From: Methylomonas fluvii
GTDB taxonomy: Bacteria > Pseudomonadota > Gammaproteobacteria > Methylococcales > Methylomonadaceae
DNA length: 64,000 bases
Assembly: GCF_014850975.1 (NCBI RefSeq)
Contig: NZ_JACXST010000002.1
Location: 1,550,001-1,614,000, forward strand
Reading direction: 5' to 3'
Part shown: piece after piece, positions 16,928 to 56,268 of the stretch
How the letters are laid out: the number at the start of each line of letters is the position of its first letter
Position numbering within the stretch: the first letter of the stretch is position 1
Program-made: the position numbers and the translations under genes
The notes under the pieces: model-generated
Database searches by the model: none
Seen by the model: the letters and a program-made list of their open reading frames with translations, nothing else
What the model was told of the DNA's origin: nothing

Positions 16928-18049
16928 ATGTCAAAAATGCGTACCCTGTTACTTACCACCGGCCTGCTGCTGACTGCACAGACCAGTATGGCTCGCGAAA
17001 TTAATATCCCGGTGCCAATGGAGTACGGTTTAATCAAAAGTGTGCTGGTTAGCGAGCTCTACGACGGCCCGAATGAATCGGTAAGAGCCTGGAAAGACGG
17101 CAAGCAATGCAGCTTTTTGGACCTGGACCACCCGCAAATCAGCGGCGAGCAGGGACAGGTCAAAATTCAGAATAATGTACAAGCTCGAGTCGGTACCGCA
17201 CTGGGCGGCAAATGCATGACCTTGATCGAATGGTCCGGCATTTTGCAAACCCTGCAACAGCCGACATTGGATGCATCCGGCAATGTACTGAGCTTCCCGG
17301 TCACCCAACTGAATGCGTTTGATCGCAACGGCCAACCGTTGAACATTGCCCAATTGCAATCGCTGATCAAAAAAGCCGCCGAACCCAAACTGGCCGCTCT
17401 AAAAATCGACTTAAACCAATCCCGCCCGGACATTACTAAAACCCTGCTTCCCTTCATCGCCGCCGAAGATAGCGAGGAGTTGCACGACACCATCAACAGC
17501 CTGCGCTTCAATCAGGTCAAAGCCGATGAGAAAGGTATTTTAATCAACGTGGGCTACAGCGCTACCAACCAAAATGCCGGCGGCTTAAAAGCGGCCCCGA
17601 TATTGAACGAAGCGGAATTGAAACAATGGCGTAGCCTCTGGCAAGGTTGGCAGGCGTCTTTGGAAAAGAATATTGAGAAAGCCCCTATCGCCACCAACGC
17701 TGACGCCAGCCGGGCAAGCTTGCGCGATGTCCTGCAAAAAGCCGGCGTCGCCTTTGAACAAGGTCTGACGGCGGAATATGTGGCGGAAAACGATCCGGTG
17801 CGCAAGTTCTTCAACAGTTCCTGGGATGTACTAGCCCCGCTACTACGTGACGCGTCAACGCAGTTGCCGGGCAATAGCAGCCTGCGCTATGTGACGCTGA
17901 TTGCCGCAACGGACTTGATGTACGAGTTGGAATCGATAGGCTCGCCACTTGGGCTGGAAGTATCCTCCAACGGCTTGCGGAAACTGGCCCGTTCGCTGAT
18001 CGCCCACGAAAATCCCAAAGGCAAGACCAAAACCAAACGCAAAGGTTAA
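16928..18049 (+). CDS. Exported protein of unknown function
   Basis: A 373-residue protein with a clear signal peptide (MRTLLLTTGLLLTAQTSMA, cleavage near residue 22). It starts three bases after the nadE stop, with AAGGAG upstream. The mature part has two Cys (about residues 59 and 95) that could form a disulfide, no transmembrane helix, and a basic tail (GKTKTKRKG). It is the last gene before a strong terminator, so it is probably expressed with sucCD-nadE. No family is recognised and no role can be assigned. Confidence 0.8.
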   Translation: MSKMRTLLLTTGLLLTAQTSMAREINIPVPMEYGLIKSVLVSELYDGPNESVRAWKDGKQCSFLDLDHPQISGEQGQVKIQNNVQARVGTALGGKCMTLIEWSGILQTLQQPTLDASGNVLSFPVTQLNAFDRNGQPLNIAQLQSLIKKAAEPKLAALKIDLNQSRPDITKTLLPFIAAEDSEELHDTINSLRFNQVKADEKGILINVGYSATNQNAGGLKAAPILNEAELKQWRSLWQGWQASLEKNIEKAPIATNADASRASLRDVLQKAGVAFEQGLTAEYVAENDPVRKFFNSSWDVLAPLLRDASTQLPGNSSLRYVTLIAATDLMYELESIGSPLGLEVSSNGLRKLARSLIAHENPKGKTKTKRKG

Positions 18050-18076: not shown

Positions 18077-18113
18077 AGGGATACCGGCCGCAAGACCGGT
18101 ATCCCTGCTTTTT
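18077..18113 (+). terminator. Rho-independent terminator after the sucCD-nadE operon
   Basis: An 11-base perfect stem, AGGGATACCGG/CCGGTATCCCT, with an 8-base loop, followed by GCTTTTT. An A-run precedes the stem, so it may also serve the convergent 1158-residue gene. Confidence 0.88.
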
Positions 18114-18127: not shown

Positions 18128-21100
18128 CTAAACCGCGCCAGCCGAGTATGGCCCTAAAGGGTCGGCTCCCAAAGTACCCACCAAAGACTGCAAATATTCC
18201 GGCGAAGCCAGCTCCACCAGTTTCTGTTGCGCCTGCCTATGCCGCTCGACCAACTGCAACTCGTTGATCAAGGTTTGGTGGCTGCTTTCTTGTAAGAACC
18301 CGCCCAAATAATCGACATGTCGTTGCCATAACGCGATGTCGCGCTGCTGCTTGATATGCAGGCGTTCCCGATACCAATCCGAGGCCAGTAAATAATCGCG
18401 GGTAAACATCGCCCGAATCTCCGGATGATGCGCGTCCTTACCCTGATAATGACCGTCGGCCATGATGTGCAGCAAAGCAAACAGCGGCGGACAAGCATCT
18501 TCTATGCTGCCGTCTTCGATATATTGCTGCGCCACGCGTTGTTGGGTTTCGACGATATTATTGATACCATCCACAAACACCTCCAAATCCTGGCGCTCCG
18601 GCTGCAAAATCTCGTCGGTAAACACCGCATACGGATTATCGAAGATTTTACCCATCAAGCCATGTACGAAATGGCTGGTGATCCGATAACCCAGGCGGCT
18701 GGCCAAGACGATTTGCCCCTTGTATTCGAAGTCGCTTAAAGGTTCCAGATAGCCATGTTGCAACAGAAACTTGGGGTGACGCTCTTCCCGCGACAGCCGC
18801 GCCCAGATCTCCGGCACCAACAAACTAATGTCGTGATCGACGCGGGTATCCGGACCGATAAATCCCGCCGAACTGGAAAAGCCGGGATAACCGGTCAAAA
18901 TGAACGAGACCAGCGCGTTGTTCAAATCGGCGGTGCCGCGCAGAGCATTAAATGGTCCTTTAGTCAGCGCCCCTTCACTGCCGGCTCCGGTGGTAGACGG
19001 CGACTTGCCGGTCAAGGAACAGACAAAGTCCATAAACAGTTCCGGCAACTCTTGATAATGAATCGGGTTGTAAACCGCTAACGCGCGGATACCCGGTTCG
19101 GGCGGATTGTTGCGGCGACCGGTCAATACCGCATCCACCGGATGGCAGAGCGGTTGATTGAGCGGAATCTTACGATGCAAACGCGCGCCCAGCTCGGCTA
19201 CATACTTGCGCAAGGGTTTCACCACGTCGACGCGGGTTTCCAGGTAACGCGGATTTTTCGACGGTTTGCCGTTCACCAAACGCGGATGCGCGGAACACAC
19301 CACAAAGCCTTTTCCATCCTGATAAGCGTCAGTTAACAGCTTTTGCATCGGCGCGGTGAATTTGGAAAAAGTCATTACATCTTCCACGATCGCCGACAAA
19401 TTCTCATGGTCCAAAGGCTCGAAATTGGCCATAAAATTACCCGGCCCGGACATGTTCAGCTCGGTCTGCTTGTCGTAACCCGGAATAATCGCGTCGTCCG
19501 GGCGTTGAAACAGTCGATATTCGCAGTTGCTAACCAACTTCAAACTCATTTCATAGCCATCGTCCGGCAGGCATGCGCGTACTGCTTGCTTCGGCACCAC
19601 CACCGAAGCGCTGATGTCGTCTTCCATCTGCACTTTCTCGCAGGCGATATAGTCTTGCCGCACCTTGAAAGTGCGCCAGCCGCCGTCCAGATCAAAACCT
19701 ACCCGCAAATAGGTAGCAACGATCTTACGCTGATTCAGTTTCAGCTCATGGCCGGGCGCACCGTCAATCACGTCCACCGATAAATTATCGCGCCAATTGT
19801 TACCCCATTCCGGGCGGTAAAAGCGCTTGATCAAAAACACCAAAGCCAGGATGCTGGGCGGGATGGATCGCAGCCAATCATTGAATTCCGGAAGGTGATT
19901 GGGAGAAGGCGTCAACAACTTGATCACGGAACCCAGACTGCGTTCCTGACTGAGCACGGTGCGGCTAGGGCCATGGTCATCGCGTTCGAAGCCCGGCAAG
20001 AAGCGGCCGGTATAGTCTTTATCGAAAATGGCCTGCACCCGATCCAAATCGTGCTGCAAATCGTCTACAAACAGTGGCCCATAGATCGCCGCGTCCTCGA
20101 TGGATTTGGAAATCTCCGATTTACCGCCGCCGGACACCGTGCAGGGCTTATGACAAAAAGTGCCTTCCGCGACGGTGCCGATCAAACGCCAGGACGGCGC
20201 GCCGGGATGCTTGCACATCTCGATTTTATAGCCGTTGGGCTGCACGTAAATTTTGCCCGGTTGCAAACGAATGCTGTGGCTTTGGCCGTTTCTGATCCAG
20301 GTAATTTTCTGCGTCGCCAGACTCATCCGCAAATCCTGCGGCACGTAAATAATTTCCGGAAAATGCCTGTCTACCGCATAACCTTCCGGATGCACATCCA
20401 TGATCGCGCCGTAGTGATAGGTCATCTCGTCAAAATCGTAGCCCGGTTCACGGGTCAAACTGCCGATACCAAACTCGTCGCCGTGGTTGATGCGCCGAAA
20501 TGCCAACGCGCCGCCGGCATGCTCTTCCTCCGCCAAGCCGAACAAATTGGCGGCGTAGCTGATCTGGGTTTTGACTTCTTTCTTGCAATAGCCGTAGTAA
20601 TTGTCGGCCAACAAAGTGACGATCACGCCGCTGCGGTCGCGTGCAGTCAGTTTAAAGGCCTGGCCGTCGTTATAAAATTCTTCGGGATTTTGCCAGCACA
20701 TGCCATCGGCGCGTTGCCGTTCGGTAGCATCGTCCCAATGCGGCAGACCCAACTGCTTTTTGGTGAGCTTGGTTAAATGCGGCGCCAGAATCACGCAACC
20801 GCTGTGCCCGGACCAATGCTCGACATCCAGGGCCGCATCGCATTCCGGCAAAGCAGGATTGCCGCCGTTACCGAAGATACTCTCAACAAAATCCAGATTG
20901 CTGACCAGATTGCCCGGCGCAAAAAAGCGAATTTCCATGGATTTTTCCGCGGCAACACCCGGGATTTCCGGACAGACTACCGGCCGCATCAATAATGATG
21001 CAAACATGCGTGCCGGCTTGGGTTGATGAGCGGTAAACGGCAGTACCATCAAATCGTCAGGCGGATTTAAAGCCTCACCCAGCATCAAGGCAAAAGTCAG

Positions 21101-21604
21101 CTTGGGCACCTGCTTCTTATCGCCGGGAACCGGCAGGCCGCCTTCGGCAACATGAAACGAGCCTTGCGTGGTCCGCCGGTCGCTGGCCGGATTGTGCAAA
21201 ATGCCTTGCTTGACTCGGAAGCTGGAGACGATTTCGGAACGAAATTCATCCTCACCCAAAGGCAACGACAATTCGCGCGCCACGCCGTGCTTATCCAGCT
21301 CAAAGGTCATGGTCGGCAAGCTGGGGATTTTGGCAAAGCCCAGGTCCGCGCAATAGCGCTCCAGAAAATCTTGAATCCGTCTGTCGGCAGGATAAAGGGA
21401 GGAACTGGCCAACAAGCGGCTTTTTTCCAGATAGCTATTCAGCAAGTCCTGGGCGGTATCCATAAACTGGGCTGACTCGGTATCGATACAAGTCGGCTGC
21501 CCGCATGAAGCCAGTTTCAGATTGATATAAAGATGCAACTGTTGCTTAACAGCTTGCTCATCTTGCCCCACCGACCCCAGACCCAGCGCCCTTAGCTTAT
21601 CCAT
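18128..21604 (-). CDS. Large protein (1158 aa) of unrecognised family with P-loop-like motif
   Basis: No signal peptide or membrane helix is seen, so it is probably cytoplasmic. Start is well supported by GGGGGAGGATT before the ATG. The sequence is globular throughout. Features that stand out are a glycine-rich phosphate-loop-like motif, TVSGGGKSEISKS (about residues 489-501), a conserved-looking block DNYYGYCKKEVKTQISYAAN (about 334-353), and GKSPSTTGAGSEGALTKG in the C-terminal third. It follows the split ATP-grasp and alpha-E genes on the same strand after a 174-base gap. The context suggests a nucleotide-dependent partner in the same modification pathway. It is not the DUF2126 protein often found in these clusters. 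Function is unknown. Confidence 0.85.
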   Translation of the reverse strand: MDKLRALGLGSVGQDEQAVKQQLHLYINLKLASCGQPTCIDTESAQFMDTAQDLLNSYLEKSRLLASSSLYPADRRIQDFLERYCADLGFAKIPSLPTMTFELDKHGVARELSLPLGEDEFRSEIVSSFRVKQGILHNPASDRRTTQGSFHVAEGGLPVPGDKKQVPKLTFALMLGEALNPPDDLMVLPFTAHQPKPARMFASLLMRPVVCPEIPGVAAEKSMEIRFFAPGNLVSNLDFVESIFGNGGNPALPECDAALDVEHWSGHSGCVILAPHLTKLTKKQLGLPHWDDATERQRADGMCWQNPEEFYNDGQAFKLTARDRSGVIVTLLADNYYGYCKKEVKTQISYAANLFGLAEEEHAGGALAFRRINHGDEFGIGSLTREPGYDFDEMTYHYGAIMDVHPEGYAVDRHFPEIIYVPQDLRMSLATQKITWIRNGQSHSIRLQPGKIYVQPNGYKIEMCKHPGAPSWRLIGTVAEGTFCHKPCTVSGGGKSEISKSIEDAAIYGPLFVDDLQHDLDRVQAIFDKDYTGRFLPGFERDDHGPSRTVLSQERSLGSVIKLLTPSPNHLPEFNDWLRSIPPSILALVFLIKRFYRPEWGNNWRDNLSVDVIDGAPGHELKLNQRKIVATYLRVGFDLDGGWRTFKVRQDYIACEKVQMEDDISASVVVPKQAVRACLPDDGYEMSLKLVSNCEYRLFQRPDDAIIPGYDKQTELNMSGPGNFMANFEPLDHENLSAIVEDVMTFSKFTAPMQKLLTDAYQDGKGFVVCSAHPRLVNGKPSKNPRYLETRVDVVKPLRKYVAELGARLHRKIPLNQPLCHPVDAVLTGRRNNPPEPGIRALAVYNPIHYQELPELFMDFVCSLTGKSPSTTGAGSEGALTKGPFNALRGTADLNNALVSFILTGYPGFSSSAGFIGPDTRVDHDISLLVPEIWARLSREERHPKFLLQHGYLEPLSDFEYKGQIVLASRLGYRITSHFVHGLMGKIFDNPYAVFTDEILQPERQDLEVFVDGINNIVETQQRVAQQYIEDGSIEDACPPLFALLHIMADGHYQGKDAHHPEIRAMFTRDYLLASDWYRERLHIKQQRDIALWQRHVDYLGGFLQESSHQTLINELQLVERHRQAQQKLVELASPEYLQSLVGTLGADPLGPYSAGAV

Positions 21605-21778
21605 AATCCTCCCCCTTTAGTTTTAGAAAACGATGCTTCCATGATATAGCAAACTTGGGGCTTGGGTCAGTAGCAATCCAAGCAACGCCCCATCGACCCA
21701 GCTTGCTTCCGCTCAACCGAGCTGTCGCTCAGTGCTGCAGACGGATGACTGGTGAGAATCTTCCTGTTGGCAATAGTG

Positions 21779-22735
21779 TCAATTTTTCTCCAATTCGGCT
21801 TCGCCAAGCGTATTTAAAAACCACATTGCTGCGATTTGCTTATGTAAATCGTCGAACTTCGCTTGCAAGCCGTCCAGCACCTGATGCAGTTGCTCCGGGG
21901 TAGTCTGCTTAATCTCAATGGCCAATATCTCTTGTTCCAATTGCTCCAATTGTGGGAACAACTCGGTGGCATTCGGCAAGCGCTTGATGCAATAGGTAAT
22001 CTCTTCGATACAGTGCACGACGGCCCTGGGGAAATCCGGGTTTTTCAGCAGAAAATTCAGCACGTCCTCACCGTTAATACGATTGCGGACGTGCTTGCGG
22101 TACATCAACACCGCGCTCAGCGACTTCAAGACGTTGATCCACAAAATGGTTTCGTACTCCCGCATCTTGGTGCTGCGATTTTCCGCCAACAACACGGTAC
22201 CGAAATCCATGATCCTGCTGGTCATGTCGGCGCGTTCCAGATTACGGCCGATACAGATAAACCGGGCACTATCGCTGCGGCTCATAGACCCGGCCATGAA
22301 GCCGGTAAAGCGTTGGCAGCCGGCCATGATTTCCTGTAAGAACAGCGCCCTACCCCGGCGATTGGACAGGCTGTCCAGATTATTGTTGGCGTACAAGTAC
22401 ATCTCGTTGACCTGCTGCCAGGCCTCGTCAGGCATCAGCTCGCGGCTGGTGCGGATATTCTCGCGGGCAAACGACAAAGACGCCAGCAAGGAGCCTTGAT
22501 TACTCATATCGGCTAATAAAAATCGAGTGGTGTTCTGCTCACTGGGGTTTTTAAAGCGTTGGTAAAACGCCTCTTCCACGCCGCAGATGTTCAGCAAATT
22601 GCGCCAGCCCAGTTCCACACCATACGGCAAATCATAGATCAGATGCATCGTGGCACTAATCAAGCGGGCGGTATTTTCGGTGCGCTCCAGGTAACGGGCC
22701 ATCCAGTACAAGCGTTCGGCGGATCGCGATAACAT
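21779..22735 (-). CDS. Alpha-E domain protein
   Basis: A 318-residue all-helical alpha-E (DUF403) protein, from MLSRSAERLYWMARYLERTENTARLI to the end. The family always sits beside circularly permuted ATP-grasp proteins and is thought to assist peptide-like amide bond formation; biochemistry is scarce. The start is one base after the upstream ATP-grasp stop, which argues for coupled translation. A fused alpha-E copy lies at the C-terminus of the 843-residue protein on the other strand. Confidence 0.93.
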   Translation of the reverse strand: MLSRSAERLYWMARYLERTENTARLISATMHLIYDLPYGVELGWRNLLNICGVEEAFYQRFKNPSEQNTTRFLLADMSNQGSLLASLSFARENIRTSRELMPDEAWQQVNEMYLYANNNLDSLSNRRGRALFLQEIMAGCQRFTGFMAGSMSRSDSARFICIGRNLERADMTSRIMDFGTVLLAENRSTKMREYETILWINVLKSLSAVLMYRKHVRNRINGEDVLNFLLKNPDFPRAVVHCIEEITYCIKRLPNATELFPQLEQLEQEILAIEIKQTTPEQLHQVLDGLQAKFDDLHKQIAAMWFLNTLGEAELEKN

Positions 22736-22736
22736 C

Positions 22737-24191
22737 TTATTGCTCCCTGTTGATAATCCAAGTGTCTTTACTGCCGCCGCCCTGCGAGGAGTTCACCACC
22801 AGTGAACCGGCACGTAGCGCTACCCGGGTCAGACCACCGGCAGTCACAAAGCTGTTCTCGCCTTGCAGAATGAACGGCCGCAAATCGATATGGCGAGGCT
22901 CCAGTTTGTCGTTGCATAAGGTCGGGCAAGTTGACAAAGCCAGTGTCGGTTGGGCGATGTAATTGCGGGGATTGTCCTGAATCAGTTTATGGAACTGCTT
23001 GATCTCCTTTTGTGTGGCGTGCGGCCCTACCAACATGCCGTAACCGCCGGATTCGTTGGCCGGTTTCACCACCAGTTCCGGCAAATGTGCCAGCACATAG
23101 GCACATTGTTCGGGATTGCTGCACAAATAGGTGGGGACATTCGGCAGAATCGGCTCTTCGTTCAAATAATACCGAATCATTTCCGGCACGTAGGCATACA
23201 CCACCTTGTCGTCGGCCACGCCGGCGCCCGGTGCATTTGCCAGCGCCACATTGCCAGCTTTCCAAGCACGCATCAGACCTTTTACCCCCAGAACCGAATC
23301 TTTATGAAACACCTCCGGATCGAGGAACAGGTCATCGATGCGCCGGTAAATCACATCGACTTTTTCTAACCCTTTGATGGTGCGCATATAAACGCAATCG
23401 TCGTCTTTGACCAGTAAGTCTCCGCCCTCCACCAGTTCCGCGCCCATTTGCTGTGCCAGGAAGGCGTGTTCGAAATAGGCCGAGTTATAGATACCGGGCG
23501 TCAATACCGCAATTTGCGGCGTGTCGTCGGTGTCGGGAGCCAATGACGCCAGCATCTCAAACAACTGAGTCGGATAATCGTCCACCGGCAAAATATTCAG
23601 ATTTTCCAACAACTCAGGAAAGATACGTTTGGTAATTACCCGGTTTTCGATCATGTACGAGACGCCGGACGGCACCCGCAGATTGTCTTCCAGCACATAC
23701 AGCTTGCCATCGCCAGCCCGTACCAGATCGCTACCGCAGATATTGGCCCAAGTGCCGAATTTGGGCTGCATGCCTAAGCATTCCTTGCGAAAGTTGCTGG
23801 AACTGTTGATCAGATCAGCCGGCACCAAGCCATCCTTGATAATCTGCTGCTGGTTGTAGACATCGTTGATAAAGCAATTCAAGGCTTTCAAACGCTGTTT
23901 CAGCCCGGCTTCCACGATTTGCCACTCTTGAAAATCGATCAGCCTGGGAATGATGTCGAAAGGCCAAGCTCGATCAATATTGCCTTCGTCGCTGTAGACG
24001 GTGAAGGTGATGCCCATCTCCATGATGGCCGCTTCCGCCGCCGACAGCCGGCCTTTAATAGCGTCCATGCCCAAAGATTGTAAGTATTGACTCAAACTGG
24101 CGCAGGCATCGCGCGGCTTACCGCCCGCAGCAATCATCTCGTCGTAAGCCTTATCGGCGCGGTAATCCGCCCAAATTGTTGGTGTGGCCAT
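22737..24191 (-). CDS. Circularly permuted ATP-grasp protein
   Basis: A 484-residue protein of the circularly permuted ATP-grasp (DUF404/DUF407) class, proposed to ligate amino groups to carboxylates. Marks are FTVYSDEGNIDRAWPFDIIPR, LEDNLRVPSGVSYMIENR, VVKPANESGGYGMLVG (the ATP-binding lysine and glycine loop), and SSQGGGSKDTWII at the end. The ATG at 24191 was chosen because AAGGA lies nine bases upstream; a longer frame reaches 24341 without a ribosome site and its extra residues do not match the family. First gene of a three-gene operon with alpha-E and the 1158-residue protein. Confidence 0.93.
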   Translation of the reverse strand: MATPTIWADYRADKAYDEMIAAGGKPRDACASLSQYLQSLGMDAIKGRLSAAEAAIMEMGITFTVYSDEGNIDRAWPFDIIPRLIDFQEWQIVEAGLKQRLKALNCFINDVYNQQQIIKDGLVPADLINSSSNFRKECLGMQPKFGTWANICGSDLVRAGDGKLYVLEDNLRVPSGVSYMIENRVITKRIFPELLENLNILPVDDYPTQLFEMLASLAPDTDDTPQIAVLTPGIYNSAYFEHAFLAQQMGAELVEGGDLLVKDDDCVYMRTIKGLEKVDVIYRRIDDLFLDPEVFHKDSVLGVKGLMRAWKAGNVALANAPGAGVADDKVVYAYVPEMIRYYLNEEPILPNVPTYLCSNPEQCAYVLAHLPELVVKPANESGGYGMLVGPHATQKEIKQFHKLIQDNPRNYIAQPTLALSTCPTLCNDKLEPRHIDLRPFILQGENSFVTAGGLTRVALRAGSLVVNSSQGGGSKDTWIINREQ

Positions 24192-24648
24192 GCTGTATAC
24201 ATCCTTGAACGTTGCTTTTATGGTGCAGATCCGCGCAGAATTGGTGCAAAAACGACCGCACCATTTCAACGCAAACCGGTTCTCATCAGTTAACTGAAAT
24301 GAAGCAATAGCGATGCCAAGTTGCGCACCTACGGCTATCAATTGCGCGGCCCCATCCGACTTATCGTGCCCTAGCGCCGGAAAATACCCTTTAGTTCAGA
24401 AGCTTGAATCAACCCAATGCTTTATATTGGACGACTCTAGGCAGAGCCACCGAACCCACGCGGTCAATGATGCGCTCGGCTATTCCTGATCGTAACGGCA
24501 TGCTTCTTGCGGGTTTCTTGGGCTACGCAGTCATCCAAAGTCTCGTCAGAATCAGCATCGGCACTAAGAATCCAGCTTAGAAAACATAAATAAACGAGAT
24601 TGGCTTTGATAAATTGCGCTATACCCGGTAAACCGGCAAACTAAACCT
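24192..24648. other. Divergent intergenic region between the two ATP-grasp operons
   Basis: 457 bases between two head-to-head operons, so both promoters must lie here. No gene is seen. AT-rich hexamers (TTGAAT near 24404, TATATT near 24423) are too close together for a standard promoter, and no operator palindrome is evident. Confidence 0.4.
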
Positions 24649-27180
24649 ATGAAAACCTTAAGCACACCAGAAGCTTTCGCGCCGGGATACCGCCTCGATA
24701 AGGGCATCCACGACGAAATGCTGGACGAGACTGGCCGGGTTAGACCGCATTGGTCCCACCTGATGCGGGCATTGCAACAGCTCGGCCCCCGCGAAGTGGG
24801 TGAACGCCACCAGGAAGCGCTAAGACTGCTGCGCGAGAACGGCGTCACCTACAACGTCTACGGCGACCCGGACGGTATTAACCGCCCTTGGCAACTCGAC
24901 CCGATACCGCTATTGCTTTCCGGCGACGAGTGGTTCGACATTGAAGCCGGACTGCTGCAACGCGCCGAACTGTTGAACCTGATTTTGGCCGACCTGTACG
25001 GCCCGCGCCAGCTCATCAAGAAAAACCTGCTGCCGCTGGAGCTGATCTACAACCACGGCGGCTTTCTGCGCGTTTGCGATCAAGTAAGCTTGCCCGGCCA
25101 ACATCAGTTGGTATTGTGCGCCGCCGACCTGGCGCGCGGCCCGGATAAAAAAATGTGGGTGCTGGGCGACCGTACTCAAGCGCCATCGGGCGCCGGATAC
25201 GCATTGGAAAACCGCTTGGCCATGTCGCGGGTCTTGCCCAGCTTGTTTCGCGACACCCACGTCCACCGCCTGGCGCGCTTCTTCCAGTCCTTGCGCGCCG
25301 GCCTGAATGCCATCGCTCCCGGCGACGCCGACACCCCGCGGGTGGTGGTACTGACGCCCGGCCCGCTGAACGAAACTTTTTTCGAACACGCCTATCTGGC
25401 CTCCTATCTGGGTTACCCGCTGGTGCAGGGCGACGACCTGACCGTTCGCGACGGCTATGTCTGGCTGAAATCGCTGGTCGGCTTGCAGCGGGTGGACGTG
25501 ATCTTACGACGGGTGGACGACAATTACTGCGACCCGCTGGAACTGCGCGAAGACTCGCGGCTAGGCGTCCCCGGCCTATTGGAAGTGGTCAGACGCGGGA
25601 ATGTGGCGATTGCCAATCCACTGGGTAGCGGCGTATTGGAAAATCCCGGCATCATGCCCTTCCTGCCGGGTATCGCCAAATACTTCCTGGGCCAAACCCT
25701 AAAATTAAATTCGATAGCCACCTGGTGGTGCGGCCAAACCCGCGAGTTAAATTACGTACTGACCAATCTGGAACGCCTGGTCATCAAACCGATATACCGC
25801 AAGCCCGGCGAACACTCGGTGTTCGGCCATCAACTGAGCCGAGCGCAACTCGCGGAGTGGCGCGCGCGCATCAAGGCCCGCCCGGCATTTTACGTCGGCC
25901 AGGAATACGAAAGCTTTTCCACCGTCCCGGCTTTGGTGGCCGGCGGTTACGAACCCCGCCAAACCGTGCTGCGTTGCTTTATGGTGGCGCGCGCGGACGG
26001 TTATACGCTGATGCCGGGTGGTTTGAGCCGTAGCGCGCCGCAATACGGCAATATGATGATCACCAACCAAACCGGCGGCATCAGTAAAGATACTTGGGTG
26101 GTCGCTACCGAGCCGCAGCATCCGGCCATTCCGGCCAAGCGCAGCAGCAGCCTGGCCGGCCACGGCAATGCCCTACCCAGCCGCGCCGCGGACAATATTT
26201 TCTGGGTAGGCCGCAACGCGGAACGTGCGGAAGGCGGCGTACGCTTGTTGCGGGCCACGATCAAAAAACTGTTCAGCAACCCTGATCGCGATAGCCCCGA
26301 CTATCAGCTCAGCCTGGAAACCCTGCTGCGCTGCGTCACCAGCATGACCGGTACCTACCCCGGTTTTTTTGCCGAGGATAACGAAAGCTTGCTGCTCACC
26401 CCCGAAGCCGAATTACTGGCGGTAGTAGTCGACGAAAGCCGGGCGGGCAGCCTGGCCAACACGGTAAACAGAATGACCCAATCCGGTTACGCGGTGCGCG
26501 ATTTATGGTCGTCGGATACCTGGCGGGTCATCGATGAAATCGAGGAACAGGTTTCCGAGGCGCGCCGCCTGGGTAAAATCGGTTTGTGGTCGATGCAGGA
26601 GCAAATGGATCAGCTGATCACCACGCTCTCAGCATTCAGCGGTTTGGTGATGGAGAGCATGACGCGCGGCAACGGCTGGCTGTTTCTGGATATAGGCCGG
26701 CGCCTGGAGCGCGGTTTACAGTTGGTATCGGTGTTGAGAACGGCGTTTGCGATGCCGCAAAGCGAAGCGGCGGAAACCCGTTTGATCGAATCACTGCTGG
26801 ACACCAGCGACAACCTGATTTGCTACCGCCAACATTACCGCAGCAACCTGGAGTTGGCCTCGTTTTTGGAACTTCTGCTGATGGACCCCAACAATCCCCG
26901 CTCACTGGCTTATCAAATCGCCCGTTTGCAGGAGCATGTCGGTAAACTGCCGCGAGAACCCAGCACCCGCCGGATAAGCGCCGAAGAGCGGTTGCTATTA
27001 GAGGCTAGTTATCTGCTGAATATCGCCAACATCGACGACTTATTGAGCGTCTCCGAATCAGGCATTCGCGAAGCGCTGGACCAACAACTCAGCAAGATTT
27101 ACGCCCTGTTGGCCGCGCTGTCCGATACCTTGACCGCCAATTATTTCCGCCACGGGGACGCGCCGCAATCGCTGTCCTAA
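24649..27180 (+). CDS. Fused circularly permuted ATP-grasp/alpha-E protein
   Basis: An 843-residue fusion. Residues 1-490 are a circularly permuted ATP-grasp domain (GVTYNVYGDPDGINRPWQLD, LGDRTQAPSGAGYALENR, LVIKPIYRKPGEHSVFG, TGGISKDTWVV). From about 510 an alpha-E domain follows (ADNIFWVGRNAERAEGGVRLL, running to the helical end). It repeats, in one chain, the two genes on the opposite strand, and is clearly paralogous rather than a recent copy, since the two ATP-grasp parts share motifs but not long identities. The transglutaminase gene starts ten bases after its stop. Confidence 0.93.
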   Translation: MKTLSTPEAFAPGYRLDKGIHDEMLDETGRVRPHWSHLMRALQQLGPREVGERHQEALRLLRENGVTYNVYGDPDGINRPWQLDPIPLLLSGDEWFDIEAGLLQRAELLNLILADLYGPRQLIKKNLLPLELIYNHGGFLRVCDQVSLPGQHQLVLCAADLARGPDKKMWVLGDRTQAPSGAGYALENRLAMSRVLPSLFRDTHVHRLARFFQSLRAGLNAIAPGDADTPRVVVLTPGPLNETFFEHAYLASYLGYPLVQGDDLTVRDGYVWLKSLVGLQRVDVILRRVDDNYCDPLELREDSRLGVPGLLEVVRRGNVAIANPLGSGVLENPGIMPFLPGIAKYFLGQTLKLNSIATWWCGQTRELNYVLTNLERLVIKPIYRKPGEHSVFGHQLSRAQLAEWRARIKARPAFYVGQEYESFSTVPALVAGGYEPRQTVLRCFMVARADGYTLMPGGLSRSAPQYGNMMITNQTGGISKDTWVVATEPQHPAIPAKRSSSLAGHGNALPSRAADNIFWVGRNAERAEGGVRLLRATIKKLFSNPDRDSPDYQLSLETLLRCVTSMTGTYPGFFAEDNESLLLTPEAELLAVVVDESRAGSLANTVNRMTQSGYAVRDLWSSDTWRVIDEIEEQVSEARRLGKIGLWSMQEQMDQLITTLSAFSGLVMESMTRGNGWLFLDIGRRLERGLQLVSVLRTAFAMPQSEAAETRLIESLLDTSDNLICYRQHYRSNLELASFLELLLMDPNNPRSLAYQIARLQEHVGKLPREPSTRRISAEERLLLEASYLLNIANIDDLLSVSESGIREALDQQLSKIYALLAALSDTLTANYFRHGDAPQSLS

Positions 27181-27190
27181 GGGAGTCACC

Positions 27191-28072
27191 ATGCGTTATC
27201 GGGTTACCCATACCACCACCTACCGTTACCAGCAAACCGTAGGCTTGTCTTATAACGAAGTCAGGATGCAGCCGCGGCCTTGCCCGAATCAGCAACTGCT
27301 CAGTTCGCAGCTGAAAATTACCCCCTTGCCCTGCGACTATCGGACCCGTACCGATTTTTTCGGCAATCAAGTTGCTTGGTTTTCGATTCGCGAACCGCAT
27401 CGGGAGTTTGTGGTCACCGCCAGCAGCGAAATACAGATTTTTCCGCAACCGGTGCAGTTGGATTTAAGCCACGGCATGAGCTGGGAATTAGTCAAGGAAG
27501 CACTCTGGAACGACAGAAGCGAACCGCTATTGGAGGCGCGGCAATTTGCCTTGGATTCGCCGTTCATTGCCGCCGATGCCGCACTGGCCGCTTACGCGCA
27601 AGCCTCATTCACGCCCGGCAAGGCGCTGATCGAAGCGATACACGATCTGATGCAACGCATCCACCGCGATTTTACCTTCGACCCGGAATTCACCAACCTG
27701 GCCACCCCACTGACCACCGTGCTGCAACACCGGCGCGGCGTCTGTCAGGATTTCGCCCATCTGGCCATCGGCTGCATCCGCTCGCAAGGCCTGGCGGCCC
27801 GCTATGTCAGCGGCTATATCGAAACCCTGCCGCCGCCCGGCAAGAAAAAACTGGTGGGCGCCGACGCCTCGCATGCCTGGTTCTCCGTGTACTTACCGGA
27901 CCTGGGCTGGATGGACTTTGACCCTACGAACAACCAATTGCCGGGCGACAGGCACATCATCGTCGCTTGGGGCCGCGACTATAGCGATGTCACGCCATTG
28001 AAAGGGGTGATTTTCGGCGGTCAAAACCACGAATTGAAAGTGGCGGTGGAAGTTGAAAACCTGGGCGCGTAA
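27191..28072 (+). CDS. Transglutaminase-like protease
   Basis: A 293-residue cytoplasmic transglutaminase-fold enzyme. An N-terminal beta domain (MRYRVTHTTTYRYQQTVGLS) is typical of the bacterial group that accompanies alpha-E and ATP-grasp genes. The catalytic triad is complete: Cys in RRGVCQDFAHLAIGCIRS, His in ASHAWFSVYLPD, Asp in WMDFDPTNN. GGGAG lies before the ATG. It may cleave or cross-link the peptide product of the ATP-grasp proteins; this is inference from gene context. Confidence 0.94.
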   Translation: MRYRVTHTTTYRYQQTVGLSYNEVRMQPRPCPNQQLLSSQLKITPLPCDYRTRTDFFGNQVAWFSIREPHREFVVTASSEIQIFPQPVQLDLSHGMSWELVKEALWNDRSEPLLEARQFALDSPFIAADAALAAYAQASFTPGKALIEAIHDLMQRIHRDFTFDPEFTNLATPLTTVLQHRRGVCQDFAHLAIGCIRSQGLAARYVSGYIETLPPPGKKKLVGADASHAWFSVYLPDLGWMDFDPTNNQLPGDRHIIVAWGRDYSDVTPLKGVIFGGQNHELKVAVEVENLGA

Positions 28073-28200: not shown

Positions 28201-31200
28201 TTGTCTCTTCACCCGCATTCAATGCATCAAGGTAATCTCTTGCGCCGTTTTTCGACCTTTTCCACCGCAGAACTAGTCCGCCTTATCGGCTTGGCTGTCG
28301 CCTACGCGCTTGTTGCCAAACTGATGTTGATGTTTTTCGCCGCCAACCACGTCGTTTCCATCATCTGGCCGCCCGCTGGCATGGCGTTGGCGGCCTTGTT
28401 GTTAAACGGCAAAAAGCTCTGGCCGGGCGTGTTCCTCGGCGCGTTGCTGGGTAATCTGTGGGCGGGCAATCCCTGGCAACAGGCTTTGCCTATCGCTTGC
28501 GGCAATAGCCTTGCAGCACTAACCGGCGCCTATTTGCTCCGCGACATTCACAAACTGCAACAACCGCAAGATTACCTACGCATCTTATTTTCCGGCGCCT
28601 TGGCTGCGCTCATCGCCGCCGTTATGGGCGCCTCAAGCCTATCCCATTTTGCTGCTATATCGACGCCGCCATGGTCAGCCAATTTCGCATATTGGTGGAT
28701 GGGCGACGTATTGAGTATCGCGATTATCACCCCCCTAATTCTGGTCTGGCGGCAACCGCCAAGTTTTAGCTGGAACCTGTTACAAGCCTGCCGGGCCTGG
28801 TTTTATGCCACGACAGCGTTTCTAGCGGGGCAAATCATTTTCTTGTCGTGGCCGCTGGATCCCGGTGAATACGGCAAAGCGTTCTATATGTTCGCTTTTA
28901 TAGTTTACGGTGCCCTGCATTTTGGTTTACACGGCACCTTGCTGTTGATCGGCATGGTAATGTTGCAAAGCATGTTCGGTTGGATTTTTCGGGTTGGCTA
29001 TTTTGCGACTTTCAACGGCGAATCCAGTCTATTGCTGCAATGGTCGTTTTTACTGGTGCTGTCCAGTGTCGGCATTTCCCTGGCGCTGGCTATCGAGCGA
29101 TACCAACGGTCCGAACAGTTCAGCAAAGCCCTTGGCGATTTCAACAAACACATTCTGAGTTCGGTTCAGGAAGGCGTGATTGTTTACGATCTGCATGGCC
29201 GTATTGAACTCTGGAATCGTTTTATGGAAACCCTGACGGGACGGCCGCAAGCCGCTTGCCAAGGGAAAACCCCCATTGAATTATTTCCCTGGCTGGCGCA
29301 AACGCCAATCCCTAACGGCATTCAAAAGGCGTTGAAAGGCGAAACCGTCTATCAAGCCCCATTTACCTCCGGCGACGACCGCTGGATCAGTTCGATGCAA
29401 ATGCCGATACGCGACGACCAGGATCGGATTGTCGGCGTTGTCGAACTGGTCAAAGACGAATCATTAAACGTCGAGTTCGGCAAATCCCTGTCGGTCAGCG
29501 AATTGCGCTTTCAAAGCATCCTGGACAATACTCCCACGGTGATTTACAGCAAAGACCTGCAAGGCCAATACCTGCTGATCAACCGCCAATTTGAAAAACT
29601 GTTCTCGGTTGACAATGAGACTGTCAGAGGCAAACGGGATATCGATTTATTTCCGGGCGACGCCACCAAACTGCTATGGGAAAACGATTTAGTGGTCGTC
29701 AATAGCGGCCAGGCGCAGATTTTTGAAGAAAAACTCGCCCATCAAGACGGTACCATTCATACGTATTTGTCGCATAAGTTTCCGCTACGCAATGCGCAAG
29801 GCGAAATCTATGCGGTGTGCGGCATTTCCACGGACATCAGCGAACGCAAACTATCAGAAAAATTATTGCAGGAAAGCGAATTACGCTGGAAATTTGCGCT
29901 GGAAAGCGGCGGTGACGGCGTTTGGGATTGGGATTTGACCAATGGTAAAGTGTTTCTGTCGCCGCGCTGCATGGAGATTCTGAACTTCAGCGAACAAGAT
30001 AGAGACAATGATTACCGCAATTGGGAAGCCACGATACACCCGGAAGACAGCGCCCGGATGATGTCCGACTTGCAAACGCATCTGAAAAACCGCAGCCCAC
30101 GCTTCAGCAACGAACATCGCGTAAAGCACGGCGACAACCAATGGCGCTGGATTCTGACGCGCGGCCTGGTGATCGACCGCGATGCCCGGGGCAAGGCTTT
30201 GCGGATGATCGGCACCCAAACCGACATTACCGAACGCAAACAGCTGCAATGGCTGCAATTGTCCAAGATTGTCGATGGTTCGCCGGAAGCCACGCTTTTA
30301 GTCGGAGAAAACGGCGTCATCAAACTCGCCAACCCGCCCGCGGCGAAAACGTTTATCTATACGCTGGATGAGTTGATAGGCCTGACCGTCGAAGCGCTGG
30401 TACCGGAACGTGCCCGCGCCAAACACCCGGAACAGCGCGCACGATTTTTAGAAGAGAACAAAGCCCGGCCAATGAGCGCCAGCCGCTCGCTAACCGCAAT
30501 ACGCGGCGACGGCACGGAATTTCCGGTGGAAATCAGTTTGACGCCTATCGATATTGACAACCGGCGCTACATTATCGTCTCGGTGCTGGACATCAGCGAG
30601 CGCAAACGCCTTGAACACGAAATGCAGTTAATGGCCATGATTTATCAGGCCATCGGCGAAGCGGTGATGGTCGCGGATGCCGATAACCGCATCATCGCGA
30701 TCAACGAAGCGTTTACCCGCCTGACCGGCTACACCGCGGAAGACGCGATAGGCTATTCCACCGACATTCTGAAATCGGGCCGCCACGACCCGGATTTTTA
30801 TCAAACCATGTGGCACTCGCTGTTACAAACCGGCCACTGGCAAGGCGAAATCTGGAATAAACGCAAAAACGGCGATATTTACCAAGAATGGCTGGTCATC
30901 AACACCATCTACGGCGAACACGGCGAAGTCGAACGCCGGGTGGCGATGTTCTCGGAAATTACCGAGCAAAAACATGTCGAACAAACCATCTGGCGCCAAG
31001 CCAATTTCGACCCGCTCACCGATTTAGCCAACCGGCGCATGTTCCAGGATCGCTTGAACCAGGAAATCAAAAAAGCCCAGCGCGACAAAAACAGCTTGGC
31101 GGTCATGCTGCTGGACCTGGACCGCTTCAAAGAGATCAACGATACCATGGGCCACGGCATGGGCGACATTTTGCTAAAAGATACCGCCCGGCGCATCTTG

Positions 31201-32391
31201 TCTTGCGTGCGGAATGTCGATACGGTGGCTCGGCTCGGTGGCGACGAATTCACCATCATTCTGGGCGAATTAGATTCGCAGACCAGCATAGACCGCGTCG
31301 CTCAAGCCATCCTGCACCAGCTTGCCGAACCGTTTCGTTTGGGCGAGGAATTAGCCTACATTTCGGTCAGCATCGGCATTACCTTCTATCCACAAGATGC
31401 GCTGGAAGCCGAGCAACTGATCAAAAACGCCGATCAGGCCATGTATTCCGCCAAGCAACAAGGCCGCAACCGCTACAATTTCTTCACCAGCGAGATGGAG
31501 CAAACCGCGCAAAACCGCATGCGCCTGACCAGCGACCTGCGCCAAGCGCTGGCCAATCAAGAGTTTTGCCTGTTCTATCAACCGATAATCGAACTGAGCA
31601 ACGGCAAAATGCATAAAGCCGAAGCCCTGATTCGCTGGCAACACCCCACGCGTGGCATGATCAGCCCGGCGGAATTTATTCCGTTGGCGGAAGAAACCGG
31701 ACTGATAGTCGATATTGGCGATTGGGTATTTCGAATGGCGGCAAAACAGGTCGCCGAGTGGCGCGCCCAATTTCGCCCGGATTTACAAATGGGTATTAAC
31801 AAGTCGCCGGTGCAATTTACGCGCAGCAATCTGGGCGACAGCAAATGGATAGACTATTTGCATGAGCTGGGCTTATCCGGCCAATGTGTCGTCATCGAAA
31901 TTACCGAAAGCCTGTTACTGGATGCCGACAATATTGTCCGCGACCATTTATTTGCTTACCGCGATGCCGGCATCCAGGTGGCTATCGACGATTTCGGCAC
32001 CGGCTATTCGTCACTGTCTTATCTGAAAAAATTCGACATCGATTATCTGAAGATAGACCAAAGTTTCGTACGCAATCTGGAAGCCGATTCCAGCGACTTG
32101 GCGCTGTGCGAAGCGATTATTGTGATGGCGCATAAACTGGGCTTGAAAGTGATAGCCGAAGGCATCGAAACCCATCAACAACTGGAATTGCTAACTGCCG
32201 CCGGCTGCGACTACGGCCAAGGCTATCTGTTTTCCAAACCGCTGCCTGCTTCTGAGTTTGCGCAGTTGTTCGATACGGAAAGTCAGCGACCGACACCGCA
32301 GCCGGCGCCCGCCTCAAGGGCAACAACGCCGGCAAAACCGGCCGGACGTGGCGACTCCAGTATTTCTAAATTGTTCGGTTCGGACAAATAA
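28201..32391 (+). CDS. MASE1-PAS-GGDEF-EAL c-di-GMP protein
   Basis: A 1396-residue inner-membrane protein. Residues 25-300 form an MASE1 sensor with about eight helices (IIWPPAGMALAALLLNGKKL is its hallmark). Five PAS-type domains follow (about 310-430, 440-550, 560-680, 690-800, 810-935). The GGDEF motif is intact (GGDEF, 1013-1017) and the EAL domain is intact (EAL 1141-1143, EITESLL, DDFGTGYSSLSYLK). Both making and breaking of c-di-GMP are therefore possible. The start is uncertain: TTG at 28201 or ATG at 28222, neither with a good ribosome site. Confidence 0.93.
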   Translation: MSLHPHSMHQGNLLRRFSTFSTAELVRLIGLAVAYALVAKLMLMFFAANHVVSIIWPPAGMALAALLLNGKKLWPGVFLGALLGNLWAGNPWQQALPIACGNSLAALTGAYLLRDIHKLQQPQDYLRILFSGALAALIAAVMGASSLSHFAAISTPPWSANFAYWWMGDVLSIAIITPLILVWRQPPSFSWNLLQACRAWFYATTAFLAGQIIFLSWPLDPGEYGKAFYMFAFIVYGALHFGLHGTLLLIGMVMLQSMFGWIFRVGYFATFNGESSLLLQWSFLLVLSSVGISLALAIERYQRSEQFSKALGDFNKHILSSVQEGVIVYDLHGRIELWNRFMETLTGRPQAACQGKTPIELFPWLAQTPIPNGIQKALKGETVYQAPFTSGDDRWISSMQMPIRDDQDRIVGVVELVKDESLNVEFGKSLSVSELRFQSILDNTPTVIYSKDLQGQYLLINRQFEKLFSVDNETVRGKRDIDLFPGDATKLLWENDLVVVNSGQAQIFEEKLAHQDGTIHTYLSHKFPLRNAQGEIYAVCGISTDISERKLSEKLLQESELRWKFALESGGDGVWDWDLTNGKVFLSPRCMEILNFSEQDRDNDYRNWEATIHPEDSARMMSDLQTHLKNRSPRFSNEHRVKHGDNQWRWILTRGLVIDRDARGKALRMIGTQTDITERKQLQWLQLSKIVDGSPEATLLVGENGVIKLANPPAAKTFIYTLDELIGLTVEALVPERARAKHPEQRARFLEENKARPMSASRSLTAIRGDGTEFPVEISLTPIDIDNRRYIIVSVLDISERKRLEHEMQLMAMIYQAIGEAVMVADADNRIIAINEAFTRLTGYTAEDAIGYSTDILKSGRHDPDFYQTMWHSLLQTGHWQGEIWNKRKNGDIYQEWLVINTIYGEHGEVERRVAMFSEITEQKHVEQTIWRQANFDPLTDLANRRMFQDRLNQEIKKAQRDKNSLAVMLLDLDRFKEINDTMGHGMGDILLKDTARRILSCVRNVDTVARLGGDEFTIILGELDSQTSIDRVAQAILHQLAEPFRLGEELAYISVSIGITFYPQDALEAEQLIKNADQAMYSAKQQGRNRYNFFTSEMEQTAQNRMRLTSDLRQALANQEFCLFYQPIIELSNGKMHKAEALIRWQHPTRGMISPAEFIPLAEETGLIVDIGDWVFRMAAKQVAEWRAQFRPDLQMGINKSPVQFTRSNLGDSKWIDYLHELGLSGQCVVIEITESLLLDADNIVRDHLFAYRDAGIQVAIDDFGTGYSSLSYLKKFDIDYLKIDQSFVRNLEADSSDLALCEAIIVMAHKLGLKVIAEGIETHQQLELLTAAGCDYGQGYLFSKPLPASEFAQLFDTESQRPTPQPAPASRATTPAKPAGRGDSSISKLFGSDK

Positions 32392-49530: not shown

Positions 49531-51308
49531 TCGGCCGACGCTCCTGTGAGTTCCAGCAGCCTAATGAAGGCTTCTTCCATCGTCTCGGCCGGCGCTTGCT
49601 CGGCGGTTTGGCTACGGCTGCGAATCTCGGCCGGCGTGCCGGCGGCCAGGATGTCGCCCTCGCGCATGATTAACAGCCGGTCGCAATATTCGGCTTCTTC
49701 CATGAAATGCGTGGTGACCAATATCGTTACCCCTTGCGCCGCCAAACTGTTGATGCGATTCCAAAACTCGCGGCGCGCCAACGGATCGATGCCGGAGGTC
49801 GGTTCATCGAGAAACAAGATTTCGGGCTCGTGCATCAATGCGCAAGCCAGCGCCAAGCGCTGTTTATACCCCAGTGGCAGATCGACGCTATTGGTGTCGG
49901 CAAACTCTGTGAGGTCAAACTCTTGAAACGCCCAGGCTATGCGCTGCAGCCGCAGTTTATGGCGCAAACCGTAGGCATGGCTGAAAAACTGCAGATTTTG
50001 CCTGACCGACAATTGTCCATATAAGGAAAACTTCTGCGACATATAACCCAGCCGGGCTCTGGCCTGGGCGGCTGCCGTGCGCAGATCCAGGCCGGCCACC
50101 CGCAAGCGGCCGTTGCTGGCCGGCAGCAAGCCGCATAACATTCTGAATGTCGTGGTTTTGCCGGCGCCGTTGGCACCGAGCAAGCCGAAAATCTCGCCGT
50201 GCCGCACCTCGAAAGACAACTTCTTAACCGCCTGAAAATTGCCGAACCAGCGGTCAACTTGCTCGACTTCAATCACTGCCGGTTGCTCAGTCGCCAAAAA
50301 CCGCGAACCATTGCCGGATACAAAACAGACGGTTTCCACTGGCAACTTTTCGTCGTGCCGGGCCAGTAGCAACATGATAAAGGCATCTTCCAAACGCGGC
50401 GGCACCGAGGTAATTCGGACTTGTTCGGCAGTATCGAATATTGCCATCCAATCCGGCCAAGAAGCGGGTCGCGCCACCGCCCGCACCGCGTCCCCCTGTA
50501 CCACCGAGTCGATTAGATCGGCATGCATCTGCAAACGTTGTTGCAGCATGCGTTTACCCAGTACCGGACTGGACAGCTGGTAACTGCAAGCCTCGGCCAA
50601 GCGATGAAAGCCGGCCGGCGCATCCTGATGCAGAATTTCGCCACTATCCAGCAATACCACCTGCTGGCAACGCTCGGCCTCATCCATGTACGCCGTGCTG
50701 AGTAAGACCGTGGTGCCGAATTGCCCTACCAAGGACTCGATAATTTGCCATAGCTCGCGGCGCGACAAGGGATCTACGCCGACCGACGGTTCGTCCAGCA
50801 GCAATAATTTTGGCCGATTTAGCAAGGTGCAGGCCAAACCCAGTTTTTGTTTCATACCGCCGGATAGCTGGCCGGCCAGACGCTGATTGAACTTTTGCAG
50901 ATTGGTCATGCGCATCAGCTCGGCGAAACGCTGTTGCCTGTCCTGCGGCGATATGCCGTAAAGGTCGGCGTAAAGATTGAGGTTTTCCAGCACGCTCAAG
51001 TCCTCATAAAGACCAAAACGCTGCGGCATATAGCCGATTAATTGGTGCAATTGGGCGCCGGCGGTGGCCGTATCCAAACCAAAACTGGCTATGCTGCCGC
51101 TGTCTGGCAACAACAAGCCAGCCGCCAAGCGTAACAAGGTGGTTTTTCCGGCACCGTCCGGACCGACCAAGGCCGTGACTTGACCTAGCGGCAGACTCAA
51201 GGAAACATCCCGCAAGGCCGATACGACCCGGTCACCGGCGGCAAAGCGTTTGCTTACCGACTTGAAAGTCAGCGGCGCCGGAGCGGCATCGGCCGCGATG
51301 GCAGTCAC
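49527..51308 (-). CDS. ybhF: Double ABC ATPase, YbhF-like
   Basis: A 593-residue protein with two nucleotide-binding domains in one chain, as in E. coli YbhF. Domain 1 has GPDGAGKTT, LSGGMKQKL and LLLLDEPSVGVDP. Domain 2 (from about residue 340) has GANGAGKTT, a modified signature LPLGYKQRL, and ILFLDEPTSGIDP. The proline-rich start GTG overlaps the ybhG stop by four bases. It powers export with YbhS/YbhR; E. coli relatives affect drug resistance and cation export, substrate here unknown. Confidence 0.94.
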   Translation of the reverse strand: MTAIAADAAPAPLTFKSVSKRFAAGDRVVSALRDVSLSLPLGQVTALVGPDGAGKTTLLRLAAGLLLPDSGSIASFGLDTATAGAQLHQLIGYMPQRFGLYEDLSVLENLNLYADLYGISPQDRQQRFAELMRMTNLQKFNQRLAGQLSGGMKQKLGLACTLLNRPKLLLLDEPSVGVDPLSRRELWQIIESLVGQFGTTVLLSTAYMDEAERCQQVVLLDSGEILHQDAPAGFHRLAEACSYQLSSPVLGKRMLQQRLQMHADLIDSVVQGDAVRAVARPASWPDWMAIFDTAEQVRITSVPPRLEDAFIMLLLARHDEKLPVETVCFVSGNGSRFLATEQPAVIEVEQVDRWFGNFQAVKKLSFEVRHGEIFGLLGANGAGKTTTFRMLCGLLPASNGRLRVAGLDLRTAAAQARARLGYMSQKFSLYGQLSVRQNLQFFSHAYGLRHKLRLQRIAWAFQEFDLTEFADTNSVDLPLGYKQRLALACALMHEPEILFLDEPTSGIDPLARREFWNRINSLAAQGVTILVTTHFMEEAEYCDRLLIMREGDILAAGTPAEIRSRSQTAEQAPAETMEEAFIRLLELTGASAE

Positions 51309-55515: not shown

Positions 55516-56268
55516 ATGACTTACTGTATTGCTGTATCCCTAAAGGACGGATTGGTCTTAACTTCGGATTCCAGAACCAATGCCGGCATCGACAACGTCA
55601 GCATTTATGGAAAAATGCACCCATTTTGTACGGCATCCGATAGGAAGATCGTGCTGCTCAGCGCCGGCAATCTGGCCACCACCCAGGCCGTGATCGACCA
55701 GTTGAAGCGCGATATGAAGGAAGAGACCGAAGTTAATCTGGACACGGTCAACTATCTGTCGGAAGCTGCCGCCTATCTGGGACGAATCAGCGTCGAAAAG
55801 CAGCGCCGCCATGTGGATGCAGGCCAAAGCAGCTTCAATCCGTCCGCCACTTTTATTTTGGCGGGGCAAATCGGCCAGGAACCGCACGGCGCTTATTTGA
55901 TTTACCCGGAAGGCAATTGCATCACTACCTCGCGGCAGACCCCTTATCTGCAAATCGGCGAAAATAAATACGGCAAACCGGTGCTGGACCGGTTTTTAAA
56001 AATCGATACGTCACTGCACGAAGCCGGGCGCTGCTGCTTGATTTCGATGGACTCGACGATGCGCAGCAATGCTAGTGTCGGCGCGCCGGTGGAGCTGTTG
56101 ATTTATCACCGGGATACGCTGACGCTGGACGAGTACTATTGCTTCCAGGAAGACAACGAGTACTTAAGCAAAATCCGCAAGATGTGGCACGAAAAGCTGA
56201 AAGAAGCCTTTGCCACCTTGCCGCAGTTCAGTAAAGAGGATTCCCGTCCGCTACCGGGCTGCATATAA
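55516..56268 (+). CDS. Anbu, ancestral beta-subunit proteasome-like hydrolase
   Basis: A 250-residue Ntn-hydrolase of the Anbu family, forming lock-washer rings in solved members. It begins MTYCIAVSLKDGLVLTSDSR: removal of Met exposes Thr2 as the catalytic nucleophile, and SRTNAG is the family signature. The ATG at 55516 is therefore the right start, not the longer frame from 55378. VLLSAGNLATTQAVIDQL and LRSNASVGAP-like MRSNASVGAP are also typical. Elsewhere Anbu sits in an operon with alpha-E, circularly permuted ATP-grasp and transglutaminase genes; here those lie about 27 kb to the left. Confidence 0.95.
   Translation: MTYCIAVSLKDGLVLTSDSRTNAGIDNVSIYGKMHPFCTASDRKIVLLSAGNLATTQAVIDQLKRDMKEETEVNLDTVNYLSEAAAYLGRISVEKQRRHVDAGQSSFNPSATFILAGQIGQEPHGAYLIYPEGNCITTSRQTPYLQIGENKYGKPVLDRFLKIDTSLHEAGRCCLISMDSTMRSNASVGAPVELLIYHRDTLTLDEYYCFQEDNEYLSKIRKMWHEKLKEAFATLPQFSKEDSRPLPGCI

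Follow-up and report, generated by a model that had tools for sequence, protein, structure and literature searches.

The window analysed here, a 64,000-nucleotide stretch of the Methylomonas fluvii genome, carries two divergent gene modules built from circularly permuted (CP) ATP-grasp and alpha-E domains. In one, the two domains are encoded by neighbouring genes (the split form or split pair); in the other they are joined in one protein (the fused form), which is followed by a transglutaminase-like protein, TG1. We find that the fused ATP-grasp looks catalytically dead across its whole clade, a predicted pseudo-ligase that selection nevertheless keeps, and that the split ATP-grasp, which accompanies it in nearly all genomes surveyed, is presumed catalytically intact. 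On the basis of sequence comparisons covering residue loss, purifying selection, co-occurrence, gene order and promoter enrichment, the explanation that we consider somewhat better than even is a variant of the peptide-modification system named after alpha-E and the proteasome-like hydrolase Anbu, in which an active split ligase works with a conserved, non-catalytic fused pseudo-ligase.

An intact split form and a depleted fused form

With residues numbered from ATG 24191 in the split ATP-grasp and from ATG 24649 in the fused protein, the former keeps D155, E168-x-N170, D327-D328-K329, K376, the GGYG loop at 382-385, D436, N467, K475 and D476. In the fused protein of the window, E-x-N is replaced by G173-x-R175 and DDK by ENP (331-333), GGYG is lost and the equivalent of D436 is V440; K380, R442, K480 and D481 are retained. 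This is no peculiarity of one genome. E168, N170, D328, K329, Y384 and D436 are invariant in 86/86 split sequences; of 60 fused sequences, 57 have lost all six and the other three retain one, the E of E-x-N surviving in 1/60 and the N in 0/60. Among the top 120 database homologues for each form, which are close relatives, both residues are present in 120/120 split and 0/120 fused proteins. Fused proteins of Tsukamurella and Sinorhizobium show the same loss; in Tsukamurella, Deinococcus, Hymenobacter and Sinorhizobium the split protein is intact, except for a His-to-Arg change at H434 in Hymenobacter. Taken together, the hallmarks of an ATP-grasp (E-x-N as presumed metal ligands, a glycine loop and conserved lysines) are found in all 86 split sequences; the fused form has the overall fold, and neither the E-x-N ligands nor the glycine loop.

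The phylogeny of the two ATP-grasp parts, to which the initial annotation had pointed, sets the forms on opposite sides of one branch. In a quick, unrooted tree without bootstraps, built from 77 sequences that represent 146 ATP-grasp domains, 143 of them distinct, after 4 of 150 hits had been dropped for low coverage, that single branch parts 36 fused from 41 split sequences with an SH-aLRT support of 100, and three long fused branches were flagged. By this tree the split and fused ATP-grasps are old paralogues and, since one branch divides all fused from all split sequences, the fusion in the window is not a recent join of neighbouring genes.

Within the genus, the fused ATP-grasp is under purifying selection, its ratio of nonsynonymous to synonymous substitution rates (dN/dS) being 0.03-0.06 against four relatives and 0.10 against a fifth, somewhat higher than that of the split one (the split-gene row of locus L140, a cross-paralogue match, was left unused, and L120 yielded no dS). 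Across 37 loci with both forms, a mirror-tree comparison gave a distance correlation of r = 0.76, a value as high being reached in 0/1000 permutations, with pairwise distances about 1.9-fold larger in the fused than in the split form. The loss of ATP-binding residues that the initial annotation had associated with a decayed copy is thus real and clade-wide; the decay itself is not, as the gene is under purifying selection.

Some supposed pseudoenzymes still bind nucleotide when the usual metal ligands are gone, and catalyse another transfer, and the fused protein could in the same way be an active enzyme of changed chemistry. We regard this as unlikely, although it is the strongest of the alternatives: the fold is retained, purifying selection is strong and the equivalents of K376, R438, K475 and D476 are present in 120/120 close fused homologues, but the retained lysines are not clade-wide (Lys at the K376 position in 39/60 and at the K475 position in 51/60 fused sequences, both being gone in the Sinorhizobium and Tsukamurella proteins) and the glycine loop has disappeared.

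Co-occurrence and gene order across genomes

We surveyed 101 genomes of the family and 150 of the phylum, calling a fused form from an open frame of >800 amino acids (aa) in the family set and from <245 bits with at least 800 aa in the phylum set, where one 27-bit fragment was dropped. In the family, the fused form occurs in 53 genomes, the split form in 65 and both in 51 (Fisher p = 2e-13), the two genomes with fused and no split form being one that is 77% complete (G071) and one in 380 contigs (G098). In the phylum, all 49 genomes with the fused form also hold the split form (49/49), and 37/86 split-bearing genomes have no fused form. The two forms, which the initial annotation had suggested may act in one pathway, are therefore not independent across genomes, travelling together in 51/53 and 49/49 fused-bearing genomes. 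They are also often close neighbours, at most 20 kb apart in 27/49 phylum genomes from 15 families and at most 14 kb apart in 24/51 family genomes with both, in divergent, convergent and tandem orders alike.

A further partner is DUF2126, a transglutaminase and putative amidoligase protein, which is present in 53/53 family and 46/49 phylum genomes with the fused form. Among 28 phylum loci with fused genes, drawn from as many of the 49 genomes that carry one, the tandem order DUF2126 - fused - TG1 is found in 18; DUF2126 stands divergent before the fused gene in five and behind TG1 in two, and is absent from three. TG1 adjoins the fused gene in 27/28 of these loci. Because DUF2126 accompanies the fused gene and TG1 in 25/28, it is the most likely partner of the fused protein. 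The split form is in turn present in 50/50 phylum genomes with DUF2126 and in 58/59 with Anbu, and in the family Anbu occurs in 64/65 split-bearing genomes. The exception is G017, scored as having a split form and no Anbu; it is better excluded as a truncated locus, for this locus (L239) lies at a contig end and has only pieces of the split, DUF2126 and fused genes, through either true decay or an assembly fault.

Two parallel active ligases acting on different substrates in one pathway, as the initial annotation had it, would agree with the co-occurrence, the frequent co-location and the correlated distances of the two forms; this proposal does not sit well with a fused form that has lost its presumed catalytic residues clade-wide, and we hold it improbable.

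A sigma-54 signature before the split pair

Sigma-54 promoters have a GG/GC -24/-12 consensus with fixed spacing, which the promoter candidate before the split pair fits, with zero or one mismatch in 5/5 aligned genus genomes. Counting only genes whose upstream sequence was long enough, we found an element of no more than two mismatches within 400 bp upstream of 39/54 split ATP-grasp genes, 7/59 fused genes and 23/173 other open reading frames (ORFs), the counts from domain starts being 45/58 split and 7/59 fused. A weaker site precedes the fused gene of the window, and such sites are not enriched before fused genes generally. An inverted repeat separates the sigma-54 site from the start codon of the split pair; its arms are identical in five aligned genus genomes, and its orientation does not match that of an NtrC site.

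According to passages of published work, Pseudomonas putida on nitrate versus ammonium upregulates PP_2685, listed as a proteasome beta subunit (log2 4.4), and PP_2688, a CP ATP-grasp (log2 4.0; PMC8050072), Anbu induction at nitrogen limitation is cited (PMC5666114, PMC6376114), and these domains correlate with urea metabolism in metagenomes (PMC3597751). With PP_2685 taken to be Anbu, the motif of the split pair fits, by analogy, the published nitrogen-limitation response of the P. putida relatives, and suggests nitrogen control in this organism.

The locus and its neighbours

The features of the window are collected in Table 1. The Pfam scores of the ATP-grasp, alpha-E and transglutaminase N-terminal domains are all well over cut-off, and the locus has two traits of an Anbu-type system, a CP ATP-grasp adjoining alpha-E and a transglutaminase-like protein inside the cluster. 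The split ATP-grasp and alpha-E genes form a probable coupled operon, the former lying within a 534-aa ORF that opens at a TTG upstream of the ATG.

Table 1. Features of the ATP-grasp/alpha-E locus and related elements of the window
Feature	Position	Strand	Details
Split CP ATP-grasp ligase	22737..24191	-	484 aa from ATG 24191; CP_ATPgrasp_2 (Pfam) 554 bits; PDB 3n6x 533 bits
Split alpha-E	21779..22735	-	Pfam Alpha-E 272 bits; 1 bp past ATP-grasp stop codon
Fused ATP-grasp/alpha-E	24649..27180	+	843 codons; Pfam scores 511 + 235 bits
Transglutaminase-like protein TG1	27191..28072	+	10 bp past fused gene; Bact_transglu_N 99 bits, Transglut_core 72 bits
Divergent intergenic region	24192..24648		exactly 457 bp
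Sigma-54-type -24/-12 promoter candidate, split pair	24303..24318	-	TGGCAT-N5-TTGCT, 1 mismatch, 112 bp before ATG
Weaker sigma-54-like site, fused gene	24496..24510	+	2 mismatches; 139 bp before ATG; seen in genus
Inverted repeat	24242..24263		TGGTGC-N10-GCACCA, between sigma-54 site and split start codon
PPi-type PEP carboxykinase	18128..21604	-	1158 aa; 174 bp downstream of alpha-E; named relatives and structure matches
Terminator-like hairpin	18077..18106		13-pair stem, 3' of PEP carboxykinase gene
Anbu (proteasome-like NTN hydrolase)	55516..56268	+	PDB Anbu entries 5loy, 5lox, 5nyw, 208-232 bits

The layout described in the initial annotation stands as far as the split pair, the fusion with its transglutaminase and the 457-base gap are concerned; its inclusion of a 1158-residue protein in the minus-strand operon does not. 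This protein gave zero matches in the Pfam and NCBIfam copies searched. Some of its database relatives are named pyrophosphate (PPi)-type phosphoenolpyruvate carboxykinase (PEPCK), those listed carrying PF26300, and it matches solved PPi-PEPCK structures at 1185 bits (6k31, AiPEPCK; residues 55-1149) and 1178 bits (8e1u; 20-1149). Judged by this overall similarity it is a PPi-type PEPCK, with PPi-dependent activity as a prediction; a methanotroph pathway figure includes such an enzyme (in a passage of PMC10602362).

The PEPCK is probably a lineage-specific chance neighbour from unrelated metabolism, outside the ATP-grasp system, because 78 of 80 fetched PEPCK loci lack ATP-grasp genes (the 80 come from 588 relatives, their flank lengths vary and some end at contig ends). 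The two loci with such genes are both from Methylomonas (LW13 and NCIMB 11130), and the same layout is present in the genus genome G038; one of the other 78, L046, has a distant transglutaminase match. Conversely, no PEPCK match was found in a set of 40 fetched loci that includes the 28 phylum loci with fused genes, and in the genus genome G061 the split pair is adjoined by Anbu instead. That the enzyme works as part of the minus-strand operon, with PPi metabolism as one conceivable link, is thus a very improbable reading of its same-strand position 174 bp downstream and of the identical layout in LW13, NCIMB 11130 and G038, the more so as the gene is framed by a weak promoter-like site, within the 174 bp that precede it, and by the terminator-like hairpin, although such sites are not above chance in number. 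Convergent with the PEPCK gene is a 373-aa ORF (16928-18049) with zero Pfam or NCBIfam matches.

Beyond the other end of the locus, immediately downstream of the transglutaminase, lies a 1396-aa MASE1/PAS/GGDEF/EAL protein (28201-32391), with similar proteins on the same side in the genus loci L136, L137, L140 and L141. Further along, a 592-aa protein with DUF11 and RTX calcium-binding repeats (38245-40023) is probably a secreted surface protein.

The genome of the window (5.59 Mb) holds three CP ATP-grasp and three alpha-E domains. On another contig (C1) lies the third pair, which is split, with a 417-aa protein next to it and then DUF2126 (1358 bits), which therefore sits on a different contig from the fused gene. 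The 417-aa protein (L090, G000 C1, 11619-12872) has zero Pfam matches, and its relatives occur near DUF2126 in other genomes, including at L236 and L237. Anbu, the usual partner of the split pair, lies outside the operon here, 27.4 kb from the transglutaminase. A 13-kb stretch of G061, where Anbu stands beside the split pair, shares with positions 50001-60000 of the window a single DNA match, an 819-bp piece covering the Anbu gene.

Elsewhere in the family a larger cluster is often preserved, made up of DUF2126, citrate synthase, the fused gene, TG1, a MinD/ParA-like protein, a second transglutaminase, Anbu and the split pair, and the window is for this reason probably a rearranged remnant of it. 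Among 42 family stretches compared, citrate synthase occurs in 16, the MinD/ParA-like protein in 20 and Anbu in 24. The citrate synthase gene, found between DUF2126 and the fused gene (for example, L129 10275-11582) and without a match in the window, is a possible hint at the substrate; the MinD/ParA-like protein is an NTPase of 231 aa (for example, L129 5893-6588).

Discussion

We infer the catalytic mechanism of the split enzyme, an adaptor role of the fused one and the making of a peptide tag or other product as follows. The split ATP-grasp, with its full set of invariant residues, its sigma-54-type promoter and its peptidase-like partner Anbu, would most likely form an amide bond via an acyl phosphate; according to a passage of PMC6376114, the Yersinia ATP-grasp of such an operon frees phosphate from ATP. 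The fused protein, encoded with its transglutaminase beside the DUF2126 amidoligase in most other genomes, would most likely be a subunit without catalysis of its own that serves DUF2126, the active split ligase or both as an adaptor, in substrate binding or in regulation, because its presumed magnesium- and phosphate-binding residues are lost clade-wide and yet selection keeps it. Anbu and the transglutaminases would then act on the product, which may be a tag on proteins, a free peptide or a store of nitrogen. More tentatively, and at somewhat less than even chances, the pseudo-ligase may be a near-obligate partner of the split ligase and DUF2126 across Pseudomonadota and in at least one actinomycete, in a two-part amide-forming machine induced through sigma-54 at nitrogen limitation, where the dead ATP-grasp would present substrate or sense nucleotide for DUF2126.

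Several observations weigh against this reading, however. The presumed magnesium ligands are assigned from a motif whose spacing recurs in the glutathionylspermidine-synthase family, from a profile alignment that falls on this motif but is non-significant (probability 0.2%), from fold similarity to glutathione synthetases and from known structures; the AlphaFold2 model is mediocre (pLDDT 69, pTM 0.49, low at 175-207). Because K380, R442, K480 and D481 are retained in the lineage of the window, its fused protein may still bind nucleotide. The partnerships, moreover, are not strict in every direction, since DUF2126 occurs without the fused form in seven family and four phylum genomes, and a single-sequence Anbu query gave no match in 28/86 split-bearing and 21/49 fused-bearing phylum genomes. 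On the supporting side, three phylum genomes have a fused gene and no DUF2126, and these genes sit on the first, third and fourth longest of 36 fused terminal branches, but this observation was made post hoc. Genomes are not independent samples and, because they are related, p-values are only guides; the spread of the fused form over 24 families of the phylum set is the better argument. Finally, passages of PMC6376114 report that pull-downs with Yersinia Anbu showed no specific interaction with its operon partners.

That the fused copy is a decaying duplicate, as its lost conserved residues, its roughly 1.9-fold larger pairwise distances and its somewhat higher dN/dS might suggest, is close to inconceivable, as the dN/dS of 0.03-0.10 in the genus contradicts it, all fused forms share one branch, their clade has highly conserved columns of its own and DUF2126 accompanies them in 53/53 and 46/49 genomes.

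The favoured explanation, an active split ligase with a non-catalytic fused partner, has practical consequences. The Anbu/alpha-E/ATP-grasp system is widespread, and should one ATP-grasp form prove to be a catalytically inactive partner of the other, single-protein assays may fail. The sigma-54 signature points to the condition under which the system should be studied, and our analysis removes a tempting link between the ATP-grasp genes and their 1158-residue neighbour.

Comparison with known systems

The system is already known in outline. Iyer et al. in 2009 reportedly proposed a bacterial peptide-tagging/Anbu operon system. We did not meet the dead fused clade or the sigma-54 signature in the literature covered, which leaves out that 2009 paper, and it may describe them. 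The Methylobacillus CP ATP-grasp 3n6x ('putative glutathionylspermidine synthase') has, in alignments, intact motifs like the split form, and likeness to eukaryotic-type glutathione synthetases and the fungal ligase Cp1B (9cjn) is one of fold, at 10-14% identity. In mycobacteria, Rv2567, presumably a fused ATP-grasp/alpha-E protein, neighbours Rv2566; unlike in that cluster, the DUF2126 and fused genes of the present genome are on separate contigs. Rv2566 itself, of the DUF2126 type, has a transglutaminase-like domain fused to a carboxylate-amine ligase domain, according to a passage of PMC2588565. The closest likeness is to the Anbu operon system of Fuchs et al. 2017 (PMC5666114) and Piasecka et al. 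(PMC6376114), passages of which name no product. All of the families described there, CP ATP-grasp, alpha-E, transglutaminase, Anbu and the putative amidoligase DUF2126, are present in this genome; unlike in that system, however, the genes are dispersed and the ATP-grasp exists in three copies, one of them fused and apparently catalytically dead.

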